Below, piece after piece: positions 9,871-25,811 of a stretch of DNA of 28,571 bases (positions are counted from its first letter, which is position 1; each line of letters starts with the position of its first letter). A program made the position numbers and the translations under genes. The stretch is from a virus: positions 1 through 28,571 of IMG/VR virus record IMGVR_UViG_3300035011_000011. One strand, 5' to 3'. The notes under the pieces are model-generated. The model saw only the letters and a program-made list of their open reading frames with translations. It searched no databases and had not been told where the DNA came from.

Positions 9871-10284
9871 ATGGCCTCGGATGTCGTCTATGAGGCGATC
9901 AGAACCTATCTCTCCGCGGCATGGTCTGAGACCCCCATCGAATGGGAGAACGAGGCGTTCAATCAACCCAGCGATGGCTGGGTCGCCGTCGAAATCGCCG
10001 GCACTTCCTACGCGCAGCAGAGCATTGGCGCTGACGATCCGGCGGAAAACCGGTGGGACGAGGATGGCATCCTCTGGTTGCATGTGATCGTGCCGACCGG
10101 GACCGGCAGCGTCACGGCCAGGCGCTGGGCGAAGCAGCTCGCAGATCTCTTTCGCGGCGCGCGGCTGCTTTCCGATGACCTCGAGTTCCTGGACGCTTCA
10201 ATTGGCGCCGGCGACCGCGGCGTGGATGAGGGGCCGCACTGGATGATCACCGTCAGCGTCGATTGGCGGCGCGAGGAAGCCTGA
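9871..10284 (+). CDS. Tail terminator protein (137 aa), DUF4128-like
   Basis: Predicted ring that stops tail tube growth and joins tail to neck (lambda gpU role). It shows an N-terminal helix (VYEAIRTYLSAAW), IEWENEAFNQPSDGWVAVEI (about 18-37) with the N-x-x-F-x-x-P pattern typical of DUF4128-type tail terminators, GILWLHVIVPTGTGS (about 66-80), ARRWAKQLADLFRG helix and a final ITVSVDWRRE strand. Position right after the gp10-like gene and before the tail tube is the canonical one. It begins one base after the previous stop. Confidence 0.8.
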   Translation: MASDVVYEAIRTYLSAAWSETPIEWENEAFNQPSDGWVAVEIAGTSYAQQSIGADDPAENRWDEDGILWLHVIVPTGTGSVTARRWAKQLADLFRGARLLSDDLEFLDASIGAGDRGVDEGPHWMITVSVDWRREEA

Positions 10285-10618: not shown

Positions 10619-12100
10619 ATGACCTCATCGAACCGAGTGCGGGTGAGCTACGTGATGGAGTCGACGCCCGGCGTCACGCCCACGACCCCTCGCATGAAGC
10701 AGGCCCGCCTGACCGGCGAATCCCTTGCCGGCGCGCCGGAGTACGTCGACAGCGACGAGTTGCGCGACGACCGCATGAACGCTGATCCGATCATGGTCGG
10801 CCAGACCTCCGGCGGCGGGATCAACTTCGAGCTGTCCTATCCCCATCCGCAGACCTTCCTTTCGGATGCGCTGGTCTCGGCGCTGTTCTCGGCCTGGCTC
10901 AACACGCCGGAGCGGGACAACGACGGCACGGCCGACAGCGTGATCACCGGCGTGACCGACACGACGGACGAATTCGCCGTCACGACCGGCGCCGCCTTCG
11001 TGGCTGGCCAGCTGCTCCGTTCGACGGGCTTTGCCACCGCGGCGAACAACGGCGTCTGGAAGATCACCACCGGCGGCGCGACCTCAGTCGCGGTGCTCGG
11101 CGCGAACTTGGTGACCGAAGCTGCGCCGCCGGCCACGGCGCGCCTGAAGGTCGTCGGGTTCGAAGGGGCTGCGGCCGATATCACCGCGCTGACGGACGGC
11201 CTCGGCTCGACGGCTCTGGACTTCACCACGCTCGGCCTGCGCAAGGGGCAGTGGATCAAGATCGGCGGCGCCGCTGACGCGACCACCTTCGCCTTCCTGG
11301 TCACGGCCGGCGCTGTGGCGCGCACTGCGGCCTGGGCCCGGATCACCGGCATCGCCGCGAGCAAGCTGACGCTCGACAACCTGCCGTCGGGTTGGGCGAC
11401 GGATGTCGGCACGGGCAAGACCATCCGGGTCTGGTTCGGCGACCAGCTGAAGAACGGCGTGACGCCTGCGCCGATGACGATCGAGCGCGGCTTCATGGGG
11501 CAGCAGGTTCCGACCTACATCGTGAACCGCGGCATGCAGGTCGGTCAGCTCGAGCTGACGATGGAGGCGAAGCAGAAGATCTCCGGCGCCTTCACCTTCA
11601 CCGGGCTCACCGCATCGCAAGGGATCGTGACGCTGGATGCCTCGCCTGATCCGGCGACGACCAACCAGGTGATGGCGGGCAGCGCGAATGTCGGCCGCCT
11701 CGCCGAAGGCGGATCGCGCCTGACGAGCCCGAACTGGGCTCGCCGTGTCTCGTTCACGGTCAACGCGAACCTCGAGGCGCAGGACGCGGTCGACAACTTC
11801 GGCGCGGTCTACATCCGCGAGGGCGAGAACACCGTCACCGGCCAGATCGACACCTACTTCGGCAGCAATGCGGTGCTGCAGAAGTTCTATGACGGCACCG
11901 TCACCTCGCTCAACGGCCGCGTGACCAAGAACAACCAGGCGGTGGTGATCCAGATCCCGCGGGCCACGCTGCGCGGCGGCGGCAACCCTTCGGCCGGCGG
12001 CAAGAACCAGACGGTTTCGGCGCAGTTCGACTTCTCCGGCGCGCTCGACCCGGAGACCGGCGCCAACATCATCTTCGACCGCCTCGAATACTTCGCCTGA
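10619..12100 (+). CDS. Tail tube protein (493 aa) with large insertion
   Basis: The major tail protein forming the tube. N-terminal features fit the TTP_2-type tail tube family: RVSYVMESTPGVTPTTPRMK, LTGESLAGAPEYVDSDELRDDR and the GGGINFELSYPHPQTFLSDAL segment (about 64-85). The C-terminal 200 residues are mostly strands (IERGFMGQQVPTYIVNRGMQV; FTVNANLEAQDAVDNFGAVY) with a final FDRLEYF. At 493 residues it is well above the usual roughly 300. The excess is an Ala/Thr/Gly-rich central region (about 105-280) that may be a surface-exposed domain. A GGGAG sequence upstream supports the start. The next gene starts 175 bases later, after a strong hairpin. Confidence 0.85.
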   Translation: MTSSNRVRVSYVMESTPGVTPTTPRMKQARLTGESLAGAPEYVDSDELRDDRMNADPIMVGQTSGGGINFELSYPHPQTFLSDALVSALFSAWLNTPERDNDGTADSVITGVTDTTDEFAVTTGAAFVAGQLLRSTGFATAANNGVWKITTGGATSVAVLGANLVTEAAPPATARLKVVGFEGAAADITALTDGLGSTALDFTTLGLRKGQWIKIGGAADATTFAFLVTAGAVARTAAWARITGIAASKLTLDNLPSGWATDVGTGKTIRVWFGDQLKNGVTPAPMTIERGFMGQQVPTYIVNRGMQVGQLELTMEAKQKISGAFTFTGLTASQGIVTLDASPDPATTNQVMAGSANVGRLAEGGSRLTSPNWARRVSFTVNANLEAQDAVDNFGAVYIREGENTVTGQIDTYFGSNAVLQKFYDGTVTSLNGRVTKNNQAVVIQIPRATLRGGGNPSAGGKNQTVSAQFDFSGALDPETGANIIFDRLEYFA

Positions 12101-12275: not shown

Positions 12276-12761
12276 ATGGTTCTGAAGCTCTCCTCCCTCC
12301 GAGCCAACCTCGATCGCGAAGCCAAAGGCGATTGGGTTCCCTCGCTCAAGTGGCCGGGCGTCGAGTTCCTCGTCTCCGCCCTGACCAAGCCCTCCTACCG
12401 TATCAAGCGCGACGCTCGCATCCAGCAGCTGTCTCGGCGGTACAAGGGGCAGCCCATCCCCCCCGAGAAGCTGGCGCCGGTCATCGGCCGCCTCTACTGC
12501 GAAGAGATCCTGCACGGCTGGCGGGGCATGGATACGCCCTATTCGCCGGAGGTCGCGCTCGAGACCCTCACCGATCCTGCCTTCCGCGAGGTCGTCTCCG
12601 AGGTCGAATACTGCGCCGGCACCCTCAGCGAGGTCGACCCCGAGTTCTCCGATGATGCCGAGGCGCTCGGTGAGGAGGGCGAGCCGGAGGACGATCTGGG
12701 AAAGTCCGCCGCGCCTTCCGTGCCCGCCTCGAGCGCCGCGGAGACGAGTTCGGCTTCCTAG
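12276..12761 (+). CDS. Tail assembly chaperone, gpG-like (161 aa)
   Basis: Equivalent of lambda gpG, which coats the tape measure protein before tube polymerisation. The helical core (LKWPGVEFLVSALTKPSYRI at about 24-43, and APVIGRLYCEEILHGWRGM at about 67-85) has the pattern of short phage tail chaperones, followed by a helical segment and an acidic stretch (about 115-140, EEGEPEDDL). The slippery heptamer GGGAAAG falls in the zero frame as G-GGA-AAG at codons 142-143. Ribosomes that do not slip end here after 18 more residues. The ATG is chosen as the start that begins MVLKLSSLRA; no strong ribosome binding site is seen. Confidence 0.8.
   Translation: MVLKLSSLRANLDREAKGDWVPSLKWPGVEFLVSALTKPSYRIKRDARIQQLSRRYKGQPIPPEKLAPVIGRLYCEEILHGWRGMDTPYSPEVALETLTDPAFREVVSEVEYCAGTLSEVDPEFSDDAEALGEEGEPEDDLGKSAAPSVPASSAAETSSAS
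12698..12704 (+). promoter_or_regulatory. Programmed -1 frameshift site (GGGAAAG)
   Basis: GGGAAAG lies in the gpG frame as G-GGA-AAG, the X-XXY-YYZ arrangement and the same heptamer used by lambda G/GT. A -1 slip gives codons GGG-AAA then GTC at 12704, and that frame stays open for 128 codons to the stop at 13090. Product: 143 residues of G plus 128, total 271, very close to lambda gpGT (279). Confidence 0.85.
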
Positions 12762-13090
12762 CCGATCTCATGGATGAGGAGCCTGACGCTGCTGCGGCGT
12801 TGGGCGATCAGATCGATGGGATCGAGGACGAAGAGATGCCGCCTTGGGCCGGCTATCTCTTCGATGCCTGGAACGCGCTCACCAACGATCGCCATCGCGG
12901 CGACATGGGCTGGTGCTCTGGCATCTTCTACCAGAGCATCAGCGCGTACGCCCGCGATCACGGCCTAATGGGCGACCTCTTCCCCGACTTCCTGCTCTTT
13001 CTCCGGGCAATGGACGACGAGTACGTCGCCTTTGCCGCCGAGCAGGCCAAGGCCGCCGCCGACAAGGCTCAGCGCGAGCGATCCGCATGA
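12704..13090 (+). CDS. gpT-like part of tail chaperone fusion (by -1 frameshift)
   Basis: This is the downstream part of the G/GT fusion. After the slip at 12698-12704 the reading frame continues as VRRAFRARLERRGDEFGFLADL (22 residues) and then the 106-residue region starting MDEEPDAAAALGDQ at 12770. The latter has a PPWAGYLFDAWNALTNDRHR segment, an FYQSISAYARDHG helix, and a helical Ala/Lys-rich end. In lambda, gpT is only made as the fusion and carries the tape-measure contact. The ATG at 12770 could be used alone, but it lacks a ribosome binding site. The stop overlaps the tape measure ATG (ATGA, 13087-13090). Confidence 0.8.
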   Translation, partial: VRRAFRARLERRGDEFGFLADLMDEEPDAAAALGDQIDGIEDEEMPPWAGYLFDAWNALTNDRHRGDMGWCSGIFYQSISAYARDHGLMGDLFPDFLLFLRAMDDEYVAFAAEQAKAAADKAQRERSA

Positions 13091-16000
13091 CGACAAAGCT
13101 CTCTTCCCTTCGCGTCACCGCTGAGATGGACGTGTCGCAGTATGTGCGCGCGGCTGCTCAGAAGGTGTCTGCGGATGGGGACATGGTCGGGTCGGCCAAG
13201 GTAGTTGGACAGGCTCTGGCGGCGACCGATGCCGCCGCCAGCAAGGCCGTGCCCGGTGTCGCCTCGCTGTCGCGCGTCTGGATCACCGGCTATGGCGACG
13301 CGGCGAAGTTCGAGAGCGCAGTCCGGTCGGTCGGCAAGGCTCTCGATCGAGGGATGGACCCGGCTCGCGCCGCGATTCAACTCGATGGGGTCTATCGAAA
13401 GTTCGGGCAGACGGCCGATGCTGCGAGCCTGGCTCGCCAAGGCTTCGTCGCCTTGGCCCCGGTTGTTGCCGCGCTCAACGATCGCTACGATGTCAACGCC
13501 GCCGTCGCGGACCGCGCGGCCGCCGCGACCAAGCGGCTGGCCGATGCCCAAGCGGCGCAGCAGCGCATCAATGCCTCGTTCGGGATCGGTGCCAGCGCCG
13601 GCTCGGCGCAGGATTCCGCCGATGCGTTCCTGGGATCGGTCGGTGGCCTGGAAGGTGTGGCCAGGGCTCGTGGGCGTGCCGTCGCCGAGAGCTTCACGCA
13701 ATCGCTGAACGAGGGCCTGATCGCCGGCGCCCCGCGTTCGGCGCGGCAATCGGCCAGCGCCTTCACCGACTATTTCGACGCCATCGCCGCTGACATCAAG
13801 CGCCGCGAGGTCGAGGTCGCCGCGAGCGTCGAACGTATGCATGCGGTGCAGCAGCGGCTGCAGCAGGTCCACCGCATCGGCTACCAGTTCGACAGCACGC
13901 CCGGCGCACGCGCGTCGATGTCAGCCTTCATCGAGGAGGATGAGCGCGCGGTTCGCAGCCTGACGCAGGCGTATGATCCCCTGCTTGTGAATGAGCAGCG
14001 GCGCAATGAGGCGTTGAAGACCGCCCAGGGGCTCCTGGCACGGCGGGCTATCGATGAGAAGCAGTACGCGACCATCGTAACCAACGTCGGCAAGGTTCAC
14101 GACGACACTCAGAAGGCGTTGGTAGGCGCGTTCACGGCGACCGGGAAATACACGTCGGGCATGGGCCTCGCCCGCCACGAGATGATCAACTTCGGCCGGC
14201 AGGCGCAGGACGTCTTCGTCTCGCTTGCCTCGGGGCAGGGCGTGCTCACGGTCCTGATCCAGCAGGGCACCCAGATCGTCGACATCTTCGCGTCTTCGCG
14301 CGGCACCGTCGGCGGGTTCCTGGGCCAGATCGGGCCGGTGCTGTTGCGGGCCCTGCCGGCTATCACCGCGGTCACAGCCGCGCTCGGAGCTTTGTATGCG
14401 GCGTTCAAGGTCTCGGGCGAGCAGCAGACGCTCAGCAATTTGCTGTTGGGCGCGGGCCGGGCGTCGGGGCTCACCGGTGGGCAGCTGGAGGGGCTGGCGA
14501 GGGAATCCGCGCAGGCCGCGGACATCACAGTCTCGAACGCCCGCCTGATTGGCGCCGAGTACGTCAAGCTCGGCCGGATCGCGAATGACAACCTGCCGAA
14601 GCTGACCCAGATCACGAAGGACTATGCCGCGGCGACCGGACAGGACCTGAAGAACTCGGCGCAGGAAATCGCTCAGGCTCTCGCTGATCCGACGCGTGGC
14701 GCTCAAGGTCTCAGCGACAAGATCGGCGGGCTCGACAGCACGACGCTGCGGATGATCCGCACCGCGACCGATTTCAACGACAAGCTCCGGGCGCAAAAGC
14801 TCCTGATGGAAGAGCTCGGCCGGGCGACCGACAATGCGGCCGACCAGTCGCTCTCGAAGTGGGACCGCCTCACCAAGGAAATGGGCCTGGTCTTCGGTCG
14901 CCTGAAGGAGGGCGCTGCCGGCTTAGTCATGGGGCCGGATCGCAGCGAAGAAATCGTCGCTGCTCGCGAAAGGATTGGTGGGCTGGAGAGGCGCCTTGCC
15001 AACACTCGTCCTGATAGCCGCTACAGCGATCTTGCGGCCAAGCGGGAGCTTGATGACGAGCGGGGAAGACTGGCGGTCCTGGAGGAAGCCGAGAGGAAGA
15101 CCAGAGACCTAGCGTCGGCGCGCGCTCGCGCCAGCGAGGCGAACAAGCGCGTGGCGGATGGCGAGGCCGCCACGCTCGCCACCAACAACCAGGGCCTCGC
15201 GCAGCGCCTGCGTCTCTACAACGAGACGATCGGGCAGGCGAACACGCTGGAGAAGAGCATCGGCGAGCTTCGTGCCCGCCGCGATGGCATCGGCGTCCCG
15301 GATGCGGCTAATCGAGGCGAATTCGCCACGCTGACGCAGCAAATAAAGGAGCAAACCGAGGCGCTCGAGGCGCAGAAGCGCCGGATCGCCGACCTGCAGT
15401 CCGTCCAGAGTGGACTGACGATGGAGCAAGAGCGGGCGCGCCGCGGCACGGAAATCGACCTGAAGGCTTCGCGGGACAAGACGCTGGCGGACGCTCAGGA
15501 AACCGCCGCTATGCGCGCCCGCAACGAGGTCTTCGGCACGGCGAGGACGCAGGCCGAGGAAGACTTGCGGGTCAAGCAGGCGCAGCGCGAGGCAGCGGTG
15601 CGCGGCACCGTGGCAGTCAACGAGCAGTCGAAGGCGCTCCAGGATGGTATTGCGGTCTCGAACGCGCAGACGGAAGCGTTTCGCCGCGGGGGTGTCGCCG
15701 CCGCCGAGGTCGCTCGCATCCGGAAGGAGGCCGAGCAACAGGCACGCAGCACCGGCGGCGATGTCGAGGTCATCTTCCGGGATCGGCTGAACAAGGAGAT
15801 CGCGGAGACCAAGCGCGGGCTTGCCGAGAAGCTCGCCTTGCAGAAGCAGGAGGTCTCGGCAGCTTCGGCGGCGAATTCCGCAGCTGCGGCCGGCAACCTA
15901 TCCGCGAAGCAGCGCGCGGACCTCGAGGAGCGGCTTCGGATCGAGCGGGAAGCGTACAACAAGCTGATCGCGACCGGGCTGGTCAGCGAGAGGGAGGCGG

Positions 16001-19000
16001 CGCGCCTGGCCCGTGAGCAGGCGAACTCGGTCTCGCGCGCCCAGTCCGCCCGGACCGACAGCGAAGCGCTCGATTACCTCTACCAGCAGAGGCAGACGCT
16101 GGAGGCGCAGCGCAAGCAGATCGAACTCGTCGGGCTGACGCGGTCGGCGAGGTACGAAGAGCTCGAGGTGCTCCGCGCACAGCAGTATCTCGTCGAGCGC
16201 GGCATCTCGCAGGAGAGCGAGCGCGGCAAGGAGATCCTGCGCAACGCGCGATTGATCGGCGAGCAGAACAAGCAGCTGGAGCAGCAGGAGCGCATCCAGC
16301 ATCAGATCCAGCAGGCGCTGGAGTTCAGTGCCGACAGCGTGAAGTCGTTCCTGGACGAGTTACTGACCGGGACCGAAGGTCTGAACGGCGCGCTGAAGTC
16401 GCTCGGCAAGGGCTATCTGTCGGCCTCGATCGACGCGCTCATCTCGGGCAAGGGGCCGCTCGCCGGGCTCACCGGCATGGCCTCGACGACGCGGGACGGG
16501 CAGGGCGGTCTGCTGGGGATGCTCTCCACCGGGATCGCCGGTCTTGGCAAAGAGGTCCAGAAGGGCGCCGAGAAGGGCACCGCCACTGGCGCAGTCACTG
16601 GCTTCGGCGCGATTGCGGCCAACGACAATGGTGGCGGTCTGCTGCGGGGCCTCGGCATCGACGGCAAGCAACTGGCGGGCGGTCTCAGCGCGATCGCTGG
16701 CCTGGCCGGCGCCTATGGCTCGGGCATGCAGGCTGGCTCGTTCGCGCAGGCGGTGGGCGGCGGCGCGCTCTCTGGCGGCATGGCCGGCCTGTCGCTCGCA
16801 GGCGCCGGATTCGGTAGCGCGGCGGTGCTGGGACCGATCGGCCTGATCGCCGGCGCTGGCCTTGCCTATTTCGGCCAGCAGCAGGCGCGCAAGCAGGCGA
16901 GGGAGGCTCGCGAGCGGGAAGCGGCGGAGAACTATCGCCAGGCCCAGCCCGACTTCATCAAGCTCGGTTCGCAGCTGCGCGGCGACCCACAGGGCACGCT
17001 GGCGCAGCAGATCGCCGAAGCGGAGACTTCTGCGCGCAAGCTGGCAGACATCGCCTTCTTCGCGAACAAGCTCGACGAGGCGGCGAAGATCTGGGGCGAC
17101 AGCCAGACCTATCGCAACCGGGTGCTCAGCGAGTTCCGCGACGGCTACGGCGGAAACGTCAGCGCGCTCGAGCAGGGCGTCGGCCCGGACAGCCCGTTCA
17201 GCCGCGCGAAGGAGGCGGTTAAGGCGCTCGGCGATCAGCTCGAGGTCTTCATCGACAACACGAAGACCGCCTTCGGCGACGGCGCGAGCGAGGTCGAGCG
17301 CTCTCGGCAGGCGGCCCGCGACTATGCGGTCGCCGTGCTGGGCGGGGCGAAAGAGCTCTCGGCCGTAGCGAGCCGGATGGAGGAGATCCGCGGCACTGGC
17401 GCCGGGCTGGAGAAGGTGCTGACCGACCTCGGCATGTCCGCAGTCGAGGCTGCCCGGGCTGTCGCGGAGGGAGTGACTGCTGCTCTGGTGCGGCTGAAGG
17501 AGGCCTTCGAGACCGATCTCAGTCGCAAGACTAATGACGCGCTCGACAAGGGCTACCTCAATGATACCGCCGACCTGCTGAAGGAGCTCGCCACGCTGCG
17601 GGCCGACGCAGCGGCGCTCGGCTCCGATCAGGGCCTCGTCACCGATTATTTCACCGCGGCGGCGCAGGGCATCGTCAACGGCGCGAACCTCACCGGACAG
17701 GCCTTCGCGGATCTGCTCGCCCGCTTCCCCGAGCTGATCGGCGTGGTGCGTGAGGCCGGTGTCACGATCGACGCCGTCGCCCGTGCCGCCGAGGCGGCCA
17801 ATCGCCGGCTGTCCTATCAGGACCGCGTCTTCGCCGCGGCGAACGACACCTCGACGCTTGCGGGCCAGCTCGCCGCCTTCGACCGACAGGCGCAGCGCGA
17901 GCGCGAGGCCGAGATCAAGGCCGGCGGCGAGGCGATCAACGATCTCGAGATGGCTCTGGCCGCCGAGCGCCTCAACATCATCGAGGACTTCGCCAACCGC
18001 GCGGCCGAGGAGCAGAAGCGCGCCTTGCAGGAGGCGCAGAACTTCTTCGACAATTTCACGCGCAACCTGAAGCAGTTCGTCGACGGCATGCGGTCCGGCT
18101 CGGACTCCCCGCTTTCCCCGGAAGCGCGGCTCGCGGCGGCGCAGTCCCAGTACAATGCCCAGCTCGCTTTGGCGCAGTCGGGCAATCGCGACGCGATCAA
18201 CGGCCTGACCGGCTATGCCGACGCGCTGCTCGATGCCGGCCGGGCCTTCTACGGCTCGTCGACCGGCTTCCAGACGATCTTCGAGCAGATCGCCGCTCAG
18301 CTGACGGCACTGCCGACGCAGGTCTCGGCCGAGCAGTTCATCGTCGACGCGATCAACGAAAGCCGCGACGCGCTGCTCGCCTCGCTCGACACGAATGGCG
18401 ACGGGATGATCTCGCTGCAAGAGGCGGCGAACACGGCGCTTGCCGCGATCTTCTCCGAGCTCGACCTCAATGGCGATGGCCAGATCAGCAAGCTCGAACT
18501 GATCCGGGGTGCGACGCAGTCGACCGCCGGCGCGACGGAGGCTCAGAACAGTATCCTCGCCGCCCAAAGTAACATCCTCGTCCAGACGCAGGGCATCACC
18601 AATGCGAGCTACAGCCTGCAGGGCAGCGCAAACTCGATCCTGTCGACGCAGGCCGCGCTGCTCGACCAGATCAGGGCACTGAACGGCACTTCCTCGGCGA
18701 CGCTTGCCGCGCTCAACGGCCAGTTCACCCAGCAGACCGTGATCGAGATCGCCGGCTATCGGTCCGAAAACAACATGGTTACCGGCATCAACAAGATCGT
18801 CTTCAACACCGCATCGGCTGCGGCGGCAGCGAAGGCGCCCTTTGTCTTCTCCGGCGGCGGCTTCACCGGCTTTGGCGGCAAGTACGAGCCGGCGGGCATC
18901 GTCCACAAGGGCGAATACGTCATGCCGCAGGAAACCGTGAACCGCTTCGGTCGGCCCTTCATGGAAGCGGTGCATCGCGGCGAGATGCCGGCCGTGCCGA

Positions 19001-19230
19001 TGCCGATGATGCTGCCGCCAGCCAACAACAACGACGGCAGCCGCGCCATCGTCGCTGAGCTCCGGCGCCTGCATGACCGGATCGCCGATCTGGAAGAGCG
19101 CCTTGTTGCGGCGGAGTACGGCGCGGCTGCGGGCATCAAGGCCAGCGTCGACGATGTCTCCAAAGAAACCCGCGCCGCCCGCGCCGATGCGCGTCAGAGC
19201 CGGAACGATCCGCGCAAGCGCGCGGCCTGA
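13087..19230 (+). CDS. Tape measure protein (2047 aa) with EF-hand pair
   Basis: Sets tail length and is ejected first at infection. Residues about 359-402 contain MGLARHEMINFGRQAQDVFV and QQGTQIVDIF, the signature of lambda gpH/TMP_2 proteins. Next come a hydrophobic segment (about 410-440), long coiled coils (about 640-1080), and a Gly/Ala-rich hydrophobic region (about 1172-1265) that could cross the host membrane. Two EF-hand-type loops follow (residues 1768-1779 DTNGDGMISLQE and 1793-1804 DLNGDGQISKLE), then the YEPAGIVHKGEYVMP motif (from 1933), common at TMP C-termini, and a terminal coiled coil. At 2047 residues it is over twice lambda gpH (853), implying a long tail, about 300 nm at 0.15 nm per residue. 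A start at 12844 would overlap the chaperone gene; 13087 in the ATGA overlap is right. Confidence 0.92.
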   Translation: MTTKLSSLRVTAEMDVSQYVRAAAQKVSADGDMVGSAKVVGQALAATDAAASKAVPGVASLSRVWITGYGDAAKFESAVRSVGKALDRGMDPARAAIQLDGVYRKFGQTADAASLARQGFVALAPVVAALNDRYDVNAAVADRAAAATKRLADAQAAQQRINASFGIGASAGSAQDSADAFLGSVGGLEGVARARGRAVAESFTQSLNEGLIAGAPRSARQSASAFTDYFDAIAADIKRREVEVAASVERMHAVQQRLQQVHRIGYQFDSTPGARASMSAFIEEDERAVRSLTQAYDPLLVNEQRRNEALKTAQGLLARRAIDEKQYATIVTNVGKVHDDTQKALVGAFTATGKYTSGMGLARHEMINFGRQAQDVFVSLASGQGVLTVLIQQGTQIVDIFASSRGTVGGFLGQIGPVLLRALPAITAVTAALGALYAAFKVSGEQQTLSNLLLGAGRASGLTGGQLEGLARESAQAADITVSNARLIGAEYVKLGRIANDNLPKLTQITKDYAAATGQDLKNSAQEIAQALADPTRGAQGLSDKIGGLDSTTLRMIRTATDFNDKLRAQKLLMEELGRATDNAADQSLSKWDRLTKEMGLVFGRLKEGAAGLVMGPDRSEEIVAARERIGGLERRLANTRPDSRYSDLAAKRELDDERGRLAVLEEAERKTRDLASARARASEANKRVADGEAATLATNNQGLAQRLRLYNETIGQANTLEKSIGELRARRDGIGVPDAANRGEFATLTQQIKEQTEALEAQKRRIADLQSVQSGLTMEQERARRGTEIDLKASRDKTLADAQETAAMRARNEVFGTARTQAEEDLRVKQAQREAAVRGTVAVNEQSKALQDGIAVSNAQTEAFRRGGVAAAEVARIRKEAEQQARSTGGDVEVIFRDRLNKEIAETKRGLAEKLALQKQEVSAASAANSAAAAGNLSAKQRADLEERLRIEREAYNKLIATGLVSEREAARLAREQANSVSRAQSARTDSEALDYLYQQRQTLEAQRKQIELVGLTRSARYEELEVLRAQQYLVERGISQESERGKEILRNARLIGEQNKQLEQQERIQHQIQQALEFSADSVKSFLDELLTGTEGLNGALKSLGKGYLSASIDALISGKGPLAGLTGMASTTRDGQGGLLGMLSTGIAGLGKEVQKGAEKGTATGAVTGFGAIAANDNGGGLLRGLGIDGKQLAGGLSAIAGLAGAYGSGMQAGSFAQAVGGGALSGGMAGLSLAGAGFGSAAVLGPIGLIAGAGLAYFGQQQARKQAREAREREAAENYRQAQPDFIKLGSQLRGDPQGTLAQQIAEAETSARKLADIAFFANKLDEAAKIWGDSQTYRNRVLSEFRDGYGGNVSALEQGVGPDSPFSRAKEAVKALGDQLEVFIDNTKTAFGDGASEVERSRQAARDYAVAVLGGAKELSAVASRMEEIRGTGAGLEKVLTDLGMSAVEAARAVAEGVTAALVRLKEAFETDLSRKTNDALDKGYLNDTADLLKELATLRADAAALGSDQGLVTDYFTAAAQGIVNGANLTGQAFADLLARFPELIGVVREAGVTIDAVARAAEAANRRLSYQDRVFAAANDTSTLAGQLAAFDRQAQREREAEIKAGGEAINDLEMALAAERLNIIEDFANRAAEEQKRALQEAQNFFDNFTRNLKQFVDGMRSGSDSPLSPEARLAAAQSQYNAQLALAQSGNRDAINGLTGYADALLDAGRAFYGSSTGFQTIFEQIAAQLTALPTQVSAEQFIVDAINESRDALLASLDTNGDGMISLQEAANTALAAIFSELDLNGDGQISKLELIRGATQSTAGATEAQNSILAAQSNILVQTQGITNASYSLQGSANSILSTQAALLDQIRALNGTSSATLAALNGQFTQQTVIEIAGYRSENNMVTGINKIVFNTASAAAAAKAPFVFSGGGFTGFGGKYEPAGIVHKGEYVMPQETVNRFGRPFMEAVHRGEMPAVPMPMMLPPANNNDGSRAIVAELRRLHDRIADLEERLVAAEYGAAAGIKASVDDVSKETRAARADARQSRNDPRKRAA

Positions 19231-19297
19231 CCCCGCCACCCACCGTTGACCACCCCAGCCGGCGCAATCCAGCGCGCGGCCGCAGAAGGACGCCCTC

Positions 19298-19705
19298 ATG
19301 AGCGCGATGTCGAACCACCTGGAGAAGAAGCTGCTCGACCACACGCTTGGCCTGGCTTCATGGACCATGCCGGCCGAGACCTTCGTCGCGCTCTTCACCG
19401 CCGATCCCGGCGAGACCGGCTCGCTGGCGGCCGAGATCTCGTTCACCAGCACGGGCTATGCGCGCCAGAGCGCGACGACCGCGATGGGCCCGACCAATGC
19501 CACGACCGGCATCAGCCTCAACGAGGACGTCATCACGTTTGGGCCTGCCACGGTCGACTGGGGCACCGTTACCCACATGGCGATCATGGATGCGGCGACC
19601 GGCGGCAACGTCCTGCTCTATGGCGCGCTGACCTCGTCGCGCAACATCCAGACCGGCGACAGCTTCCAGTTCGCCGCCTCGCAGCTCAGCATCACGTTTG
19701 CTTGA
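19298..19705 (+). CDS. Minor tail protein, gp80-like family (135 aa)
   Basis: A β-rich small tail protein. It shows ETFVALFTADPGETGSL (about 26-42), GYARQ and, in the second half, FGPATVDWGTVTHMAIMDAA with NVLLYGALT. The layout V-A-L-(F/H)-T-x-D-P-G... Y-A-R-Q ... T-H-(M)-x-I-x-D-A matches the family that includes mycobacteriophage gp80-type proteins, found near the tail tip, where its function is not established. An AAGGA ribosome binding site eight bases upstream supports the ATG at 19298. The next gene is a shorter paralogue. It follows the tape measure by 67 bases. Confidence 0.75.
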   Translation: MSAMSNHLEKKLLDHTLGLASWTMPAETFVALFTADPGETGSLAAEISFTSTGYARQSATTAMGPTNATTGISLNEDVITFGPATVDWGTVTHMAIMDAATGGNVLLYGALTSSRNIQTGDSFQFAASQLSITFA

Positions 19706-24808: not shown

Positions 24809-24950
24809 CCACCGCTGCCGGGTGACTTCCGGCACTAAGGCAGGACGGATTGCTGTGTGGCGGAAATGACACCGGAGCTTAGCCGGCCGATTTCTTGGTC
24901 GGCTTGTGACTGAATTCTTCTGCCGGTTCGCCAAGCAAAAAAATTCGACC

Positions 24951-24972
24951 GCCCGCCTCGCGCGGGCTTTTT
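24951..24972 (+). terminator. Intrinsic terminator just before the endolysin gene
   Basis: GCCCGC (24951-24956) pairs with GCGGGC (24962-24967) around a five-base loop and TTTTT follows (24968-24972). Upstream A-tracts (24937-24943) would give a T-run on the minus strand too, so it may work in both directions. It ends 18 bases before the endolysin ATG. Confidence 0.7.
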
Positions 24973-24989
24973 CACGCCCGGAGAAGACC

Positions 24990-25811
24990 ATGACGAAAGC
25001 TGAAGCTCAGCTGGCGCTGATCGCGCACGGCTACGATCTCGGCAAGGGAGGCCCGTCCGGCAAAGGCGACGACGGCCATTGGGGCAACCTGTCTCGCACC
25101 GCCTGCGCCGCCTTCCAACGCGGTCGCGGGCTGGCGGCGACCGGCCTGCTTGATGCCGAGACGGTGAAGGCCCTGCAGGCGGCGATGGCTGAAAAGGCCG
25201 AGCCGCGCGCGCAGGTGAAGCTCGATCGCGCCAAGTTCTTCGCCTACCTCCGCTCGGCCAAGGCGCCAATGTTCGGCACCTCGCTGTCACGCAGCCAGGT
25301 CGCCGGCATCGAGGGCATTCTCGACGCCTTCGCGGTGACCGGAGACGGCCGCGACAAGACGCTGGCTTATGGGCTGGCGACGTCGCGTCGTGAGGTCGGA
25401 GCCGGCATGGTTCCGGTCCGCGAGGGCTTCAAGAAGACGGACGCCGAGGCGCGGGCCTATGTGCTGCGCCACTATCCGACGAAGTACGGCAAGCCGGCCG
25501 GGCCGTGGGGGCACGTCTACTATGGCCGCGGCATCGTGCAGCTCACCTGGCTCAGCAACTATGAGCGCGAGGGCATCGCGGCGGATCCCGACAAGGCGCT
25601 CGAGCCGAAGTTCGCCGCCGAGTTGATGTTCAAGGGGCTGCTCGACGGCCGCTGGAACGGCAAGGGCAAGGGGCTCGCCTACTATCTCCCGACCGGCGGC
25701 CCCGACGATCTCGAGAACGCCCGGCGCACGGTGAACATCACCGATCACTGGGAAGAGATCGCCGGCTTCTATCGCCAATTCATGGGCGCGATCGCCGCGG
25801 GGCGCGCGTGA
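24990..25811 (+). CDS. Endolysin (273 aa): PG-binding domain plus GH19-like domain
   Basis: Degrades peptidoglycan at lysis. Residues 1-65 form a peptidoglycan-binding type 1 domain (GHWGNLSRTACAAFQRGRGL, ATGLLDAETVKAL). The catalytic part, about 80-273, resembles GH19 chitinase-like phage lysozymes: LAYGLATSRREVGAGMVP with Glu135 as candidate acid and VYYGRGIVQLTWLSNYE (177-192), the family hallmark. There is no signal peptide, so a holin is needed for release. The ATG at 24990 has GGAGAAG upstream; an in-frame upstream extension would cross the terminator hairpin and is rejected. DUF6527 starts in its stop codon, so the two are coupled. Confidence 0.88.
   Translation: MTKAEAQLALIAHGYDLGKGGPSGKGDDGHWGNLSRTACAAFQRGRGLAATGLLDAETVKALQAAMAEKAEPRAQVKLDRAKFFAYLRSAKAPMFGTSLSRSQVAGIEGILDAFAVTGDGRDKTLAYGLATSRREVGAGMVPVREGFKKTDAEARAYVLRHYPTKYGKPAGPWGHVYYGRGIVQLTWLSNYEREGIAADPDKALEPKFAAELMFKGLLDGRWNGKGKGLAYYLPTGGPDDLENARRTVNITDHWEEIAGFYRQFMGAIAAGRA

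Follow-up and report, generated by a model that had tools for sequence, protein, structure and literature searches.

A lambda-type tail assembly chaperone pair with a predicted −1 frameshift site whose heptamer varies in spelling among its relatives

Are the two overlapping genes, G and T, that lie between the tail tube protein and tape measure genes of this viral DNA joined by a programmed −1 ribosomal frameshift, and which parts of such a signal are kept among relatives? Slipping back by one base to join two overlapping tail genes is long known in tailed phages, and conserved tail frameshifts were reportedly the subject of a 2004 Molecular Cell paper. In phage lambda the order runs tail tube, G, T, tape measure, with a −1 shift late in G at the heptamer G_GGA_AAG. 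The window, by which we mean the whole stretch of 28,571 nucleotides analyzed here, also has terminase, portal and capsid genes besides those for the tail terminator and the tail tube, and the gene order around gpG and T reads as ordinary for a siphophage. The locus very probably encodes a lambda-type tail assembly chaperone pair in which a programmed −1 shift would produce a GT fusion. The features concerned, all on the plus strand and in window coordinates, are as follows.

9871..10284, plus strand: tail terminator (context; PF13554, 9.2e-17)
10619..12100, plus strand: tail tube protein (context, 5′ of gpG; PF18906, Phage_tube_2, 6.5e-40)
12276..12761, plus strand: gpG, tail assembly chaperone, the unshifted product of 161 aa (ATG at 12276, stop TAG at 12759-12761; sequence reading and script)
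12674..13090, plus strand: −1 open frame (stop TGA at 13088-13090; script)
12686..12690, plus strand: GGAGG, Shine-Dalgarno-like, a possible upstream stimulator 7 nt 5′ of the heptamer (sequence reading)
12698..12704, plus strand: slippery heptamer GGGAAAG, in phase as G_GGA_AAG (direct reading and script; same place in homologues)
12704-13087, plus strand: T part read after the slip, 128 aa, inside the −1 open frame
12770..12772, plus strand: first ATG of the −1 frame past the slip, a possible re-initiation start 8 nt beyond the gpG stop
13087..19230, plus strand: tape measure protein, 2047 aa (TMP_2, 6.2e-39; PHROG tape measure families)

With 12674 as the first open position of the −1 frame and 12761 as the end of gpG, the shift must fall within 12674-12761. 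The gpG-frame codons at the heptamer are GGA (12699-12701) and AAG (12702-12704), and reading the 0-frame through AAG and the −1 frame thereafter gives a computed GT fusion of 271 aa (143 + 128), with gpG residues 144-161 being coded for non-slipping ribosomes only. The T stop TGA overlaps the tape measure ATG (13087-13089) as ATGA. Rereading and script agreed throughout with the preliminary description, which had already placed gpG, the phase of the heptamer, the −1 frame, the 143 + 128 fusion and the ATGA overlap in this way.

How much does the heptamer itself tell? The chance of finding any in-phase XXXYYYZ within the 29-codon overlap, at rates taken from homologous genes, is 0.054, and that of an in-phase (AAA/GGG)AAAN is 0.0065; taken alone, the window sequence is only suggestive of a slip site. 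Heptamer frequency was rejected as evidence, GGGAAAG occurring three times on the two strands of the window against 2.67 expected, that is, at chance level and without enrichment.

Homologous loci were collected by scanning viral contigs, genome contigs, phage records and whole genomes, which gave 231 records, reduced to 122 distinct loci (the window counted among them) after removal of duplicates by G-gene DNA; the genome surveys had matches in 18/397, 5/385, 17/298 and 4/398 genomes, in draws that overlap. An in-phase heptamer and an open −1 frame occur together in 119 of the 122 distinct homologues, where 5.1 of 119 would be expected by chance, and across the homologues the predicted slip site is present far beyond chance. 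Relatives lacking a slippery site or an open −1 frame, which the preliminary description took as the finding that would count against it, were sought and yielded a single real homologue without a canonical heptamer (L160), besides L113, which is truncated, and L149, whose match is doubtful. L160 has an open −1 frame and is either decayed or uses another signal; L113 has a −1 frame of 41 codons; and L149, matched at E 1.8e-4 with a frame of 293 codons, is probably not a homologue.

Both halves of the fusion are homologous to tail assembly chaperones. The computed GT fusion matches phrog_8233 (tail assembly chaperone) as one chain, with residues 4-262 of 271 aligned in a single stretch to profile positions 7-258 (7.2e-10), and also matches phrog_3817. 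T matches the Pfam family PF23812 (Phage_TAC_18) at 2.3e-08, above its cut-off, and phrog_3817 at 1.2e-11, and gpG alone gave no match in Pfam and weak matches to tail assembly chaperone in PHROG. The earlier proposal of a programmed −1 shift that gives a GT fusion and leads into the tape measure gene is supported by this one-chain match and by the site kept in the homologues.

In structure models (mean pLDDT 90.0 for gpG, 87.0 for T), the predicted fold of gpG may resemble the HK97 tail chaperone: with VIA-align, the best match to the gpG model in the PDB is HK97 chaperone 2ob9, at a Z of 6.4 that lies below the tool's safe level (next row 3.1), over 101 aligned residues with an rmsd of 6.5 and 12% identity. 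Foldseek with the gpG model found no match at E ≤ 0.001 in the PDB and 12 in BFVD, several of them named tail assembly chaperone, and a BFVD fold search with the T model gave weak matches to chaperones of phages Loki and CcrColossus. A sequence search of the PDB with gpG and T profiles gave nothing credible. Confidence of the gpG model is lower past residue ~121, which would fit a linker at the slip site.

Could T instead be a separate gene, with re-initiation at ATG 12770 after the gpG stop and no need of a frameshift? This ATG lies just beyond the gpG stop, and in this respect the window clade differs from other relatives, an ATG 66 nt past the slip being common to the window, L009 (the same as L002), L008 and L010; the annotated start in EBPR siphovirus 3 is this ATG, which overlaps the stop of gpG there. 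On reading the window, however, no Shine-Dalgarno-like sequence precedes 12770, and re-initiation leaves without explanation both the heptamers of the homologues and the conserved −1-frame residues upstream of the ATG. These lie right after the slip, in a stretch coded in the −1 frame only (KLRxAFRxRL), where R2, A4, F5, R6 and L9 are invariant in 6/6 aligned rows. A comparable start is moreover missing in most relatives: the first ATG, GTG or TTG of the −1 frame is located more than 90 nt beyond the slip in 68/119 loci, and only 14/119 have a −1-frame start no more than 25 nt from the stop of gpG, so that a separate T gene is excluded for most homologues. For the window a separate T gene is very unlikely. 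That the window clade makes both a frameshift fusion and a small amount of T-only product has a somewhat better, still low, probability; conservation of the same ATG within the clade speaks for it, but its methionine lies within a conserved protein stretch, FLxDLM, which is enough to explain that conservation.

Two further routes to a split frame are exceedingly improbable. Transcriptional slippage, known for long A runs, might supply the extra frame in place of ribosomal slippage, and L028 does carry eight consecutive A; the runs of GGGAAAG are, however, only three long, six A or GGGAAAC prevail among the relatives, and the phase relative to the codons is the same in all, a constraint that slippage by RNA polymerase does not impose. 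A decayed gene, split by an ordinary frameshift mutation or a sequencing error, has nothing in its favor besides the split itself and is refuted by the same split recurring at the same place in 119/122 distinct homologues, which come from numerous contigs and genomes. We retain the programmed ribosomal −1 shift as the very probable reading of this locus.

What, then, does conservation act on? In the 119 loci the heptamer is AAAAAAC in 69, GGGAAAC in 38, GGGAAAG in 5 and AAAAAAG in 3, the rarer spellings being CCCTTTT (2), AAAAAAA (1) and GGGAAAT (1); CCCTTTT is the sole in-phase heptamer of L165 and L166, both from one genome, and sets these apart from the other homologues. On a tree of GT fusions built with the slip-site residues left out, the heptamer has changed at least 21 times (17 changes in the XXX part, 5 in the last base). 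Closely related to the window and carrying the same GGGAAAG are L002 (Bosea sp. WAO; 90% identity) and L008 (EBPR siphovirus 3); the GGGAAAG of L134 and that of L158 have separate origins on the tree. Across these loci, what is conserved is slipperiness and position, with the spelling free to vary. The preliminary description had read the identity with the lambda heptamer as a sign of strong conservation; this does not hold, and since most homologues use other heptamers, the GGGAAAG shared with lambda looks like convergence. Excerpts of PMC5009743 report GGGAAAC, AAAAAAC and GGGAAAG from three haloarchaeal tail viruses, so that heptamer exchange at G/GT sites is, as far as those excerpts go, already published.

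The window belongs to a clade of five rows (the window, L002, L008, L010 and L150; support 96), in which the gpG tail extends 13-21 codons past the slip in place of the usual 8 or 0. Over the first 86 of the 119 loci, gpG stops exactly 8 codons (58/86) or 0 codons (15/86) past the heptamer, and the dual-coded length is thus quantized.

The sequence directly 3′ of the heptamer was then compared among the loci. A predicted stem-loop with co-adapted arms is found there in L003, L012, L015, L021, L023 and most other loci with an AAC heptamer. In a folding profile against synonymous shuffles, run on 77 AAC loci with L113 left out (as it was in a first look at 35 loci), the 42-nt window right after the heptamer has a mean z of −1.43, and all other offsets tested lie between −0.69 and +0.18; for the AAAAAAC relatives the mean z is −1.72, with 77% of the 69 below −1. 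In a chimera test, the 5′ and 3′ halves of a locus pair better with each other than with halves of other loci: z is −12.9 at the site and ranges from −6.2 to +1.1 over ten control offsets, the non-independence of related sequences keeping the controls away from zero. Ranked in this way, 56/115 sequences reach the best tenth when the halves meet at the site, and 7 to 24 do so at each of nine control offsets. The 3′ arm GAAGGC encodes E-G in L015 (GAA GGC) and P-K-A in L023 (CCG AAG GCG), one frame apart, and since it is coded in two frames, protein conservation does not account for it.

Column-based tests gave less. RNAalifold found no consensus pairs over 74 homologous sites, because the 3′ arm is displaced by one or two bases from group to group. 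With fixed columns in the same 74-site alignment, 61.4% of cells are paired versus 56.2% when shuffled (0/500) and the covariation score is 0.172 versus 0.129 (1/500), with one slid control (+3) reaching 0.175; pairs changed on both sides are not significant (181/500 shuffles). Fixed-column pair counting is weak when taken alone, so the case for the stem-loop is made by the synonymous-shuffle profile together with the chimera test.

No stem-loop follows the heptamer in the window, where the z against synonymous shuffles is +1.15 and folding is no better than that of chimeras; L002, L008, L010 and L150, the rest of its clade, are likewise without one, and foldings further downstream differ among the five members. 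A rule by which heptamers ending in G go without a stem-loop was considered and rejected: the window, L002, L008, L158 and L032 fit it (z +0.9 to +1.8), but L134 (−3.7), L068 (−1.5) and L105 (−1.3) contradict it. Upstream, pairing of the GGAGG of the window to the anti-Shine-Dalgarno sequence is calculated at −9.5 kcal/mol versus −6.5 ± 1.9 for synonymous shuffles, and over the 119 loci such pairing 5′ of the heptamer has a mean z of −0.41, with eight controls at −0.10 to +0.24, which leaves GGAGG a weak candidate for an upstream stimulator.

The mechanism we propose is as follows. Ribosomes translating gpG would reach G_GGA_AAG, where most would continue to the stop at 12761 and yield gpG (161 aa), and a minority would slip one base back, the tRNAs on GGA and AAG re-pairing with GGG and AAA, to yield the 271-residue GT. 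Together, gpG and GT would form a coat on the tape measure protein and recruit tail tube subunits. That the shift occurs, how efficient it is, and what gpG and GT do are points that we infer, the roles by analogy with lambda.

Excerpts of the literature bear on the strength of such signals. The highest efficiencies in E. coli belong to XXXAAAG heptamers, with GGGAAAG among the top three of all, and AAAAAAC and GGGAAAC have low efficiency (PMC4066793, in excerpt); the lambda shift is tuned by thiolation of tRNA-Lys (from an excerpt of PMC7618472), and frameshifts of prophage chaperones have been measured at 6-7% (PMC3711429, likewise excerpted). From the E. coli strengths and the lambda tuning, as these excerpts give them, it is plausible that the window needs no stem-loop and its AAC relatives do. 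Loss of the stem-loop in a clade that moved to a strong AAG heptamer is suggestive, without statistical significance: independent pairs on the tree are not significant for a coupling of the AAG heptamer with stem-loop loss, with only four or five independent changes available, and there are counterexamples, L134 having GGGAAAG plus a stem-loop, and L010 and L150, the two AAAAAAC members of the window clade, having neither AAG heptamer nor stem-loop. We hold it possible, and on balance doubtful, that the signal is built of exchangeable parts at near-constant function, an AAC heptamer with a stem-loop standing against an AAG heptamer without one. In that reading, AAC heptamers shift a tRNA-Asn and AAG heptamers a tRNA-Lys. 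If this were true, a switch of A-site tRNA would move control of the G:GT ratio, and hence of tail assembly, between host tRNA modification pathways, from queuosine on tRNA-Asn to 2-thiouridine on tRNA-Lys.

Comparison with described systems places the pair in the known lambda-type G/GT family, with a presumably ordinary function. It is like lambda G/GT (reviewed in PMC5009743) in gene order, a shift near the G end, the identical heptamer and a similar fusion size, and unlike it in the name of the tube protein family, Phage_tube_2 in the window; the likeness drawn here is one of layout and heptamer. The chaperones of Pseudomonas phage M6 and other Yuavirus members (L229, L230) are distant homologues with GGGAAAC in phase and an open −1 frame, and differ in heptamer, in being annotated as two separate CDS and in a remote 9% identity to the window gpG. 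EBPR siphovirus 3 gp12/gp13 (JF412298.1) is of the same clade, with GGGAAAG, a long gpG tail and no stem-loop, but is annotated as two hypothetical proteins. For gp12/gp13 of Acinetobacter phage Loki, an excerpt of PMC5313236 describes a chaperone frameshift predicted at AAAAAAC adjoining the G stop, so that similar predictions for comparable layouts are to that extent published. Loki, on the basis of that excerpt, has the layout of the zero-codon-tail relatives and appears in fold searches of both the gpG and T models; its heptamer is another one, and the likeness drawn is again one of layout and fold search. HK97 chaperone 2ob9, which the gpG model matches best in structure, gave no sequence match by profile. 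Signals of the dnaX or IS3 kind have a stem-loop a few nucleotides past the heptamer, as do most AAAAAAC relatives and unlike the window.

An open-access literature search found no paper on the frameshift signal of this chaperone family. What adds to the finding of the slip site itself is the exchange of heptamers in this family and the predicted stem-loop of most relatives that is missing in the window clade. The family of alphaproteobacterial (and Pseudomonas) phage chaperones would offer a clean, well-sampled case in which selection keeps slipping itself and no particular heptamer. Its natural signals, some followed by a stem-loop and some not, are at hand for studying what determines the G:GT ratio. 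As the preliminary description had anticipated, annotation splits the pair: all three annotated phage records that were opened, EBPR siphovirus 3 (L008) and Pseudomonas phages M6 and Luminis (L229, L230), give two CDS with no join, where one joined CDS plus gpG should stand.

Some observations concern other parts of the window. The tape measure protein, very long at 2047 aa, has EF-hand calcium-binding motifs near residues 1785-1808. Antisense to its gene runs an open frame of 1030 codons (16360-19452, minus strand), which the high GC content probably explains. The product of 24906-25811, with a peptidoglycan-binding domain and a weak glycoside hydrolase 19 match, is likely an endolysin.
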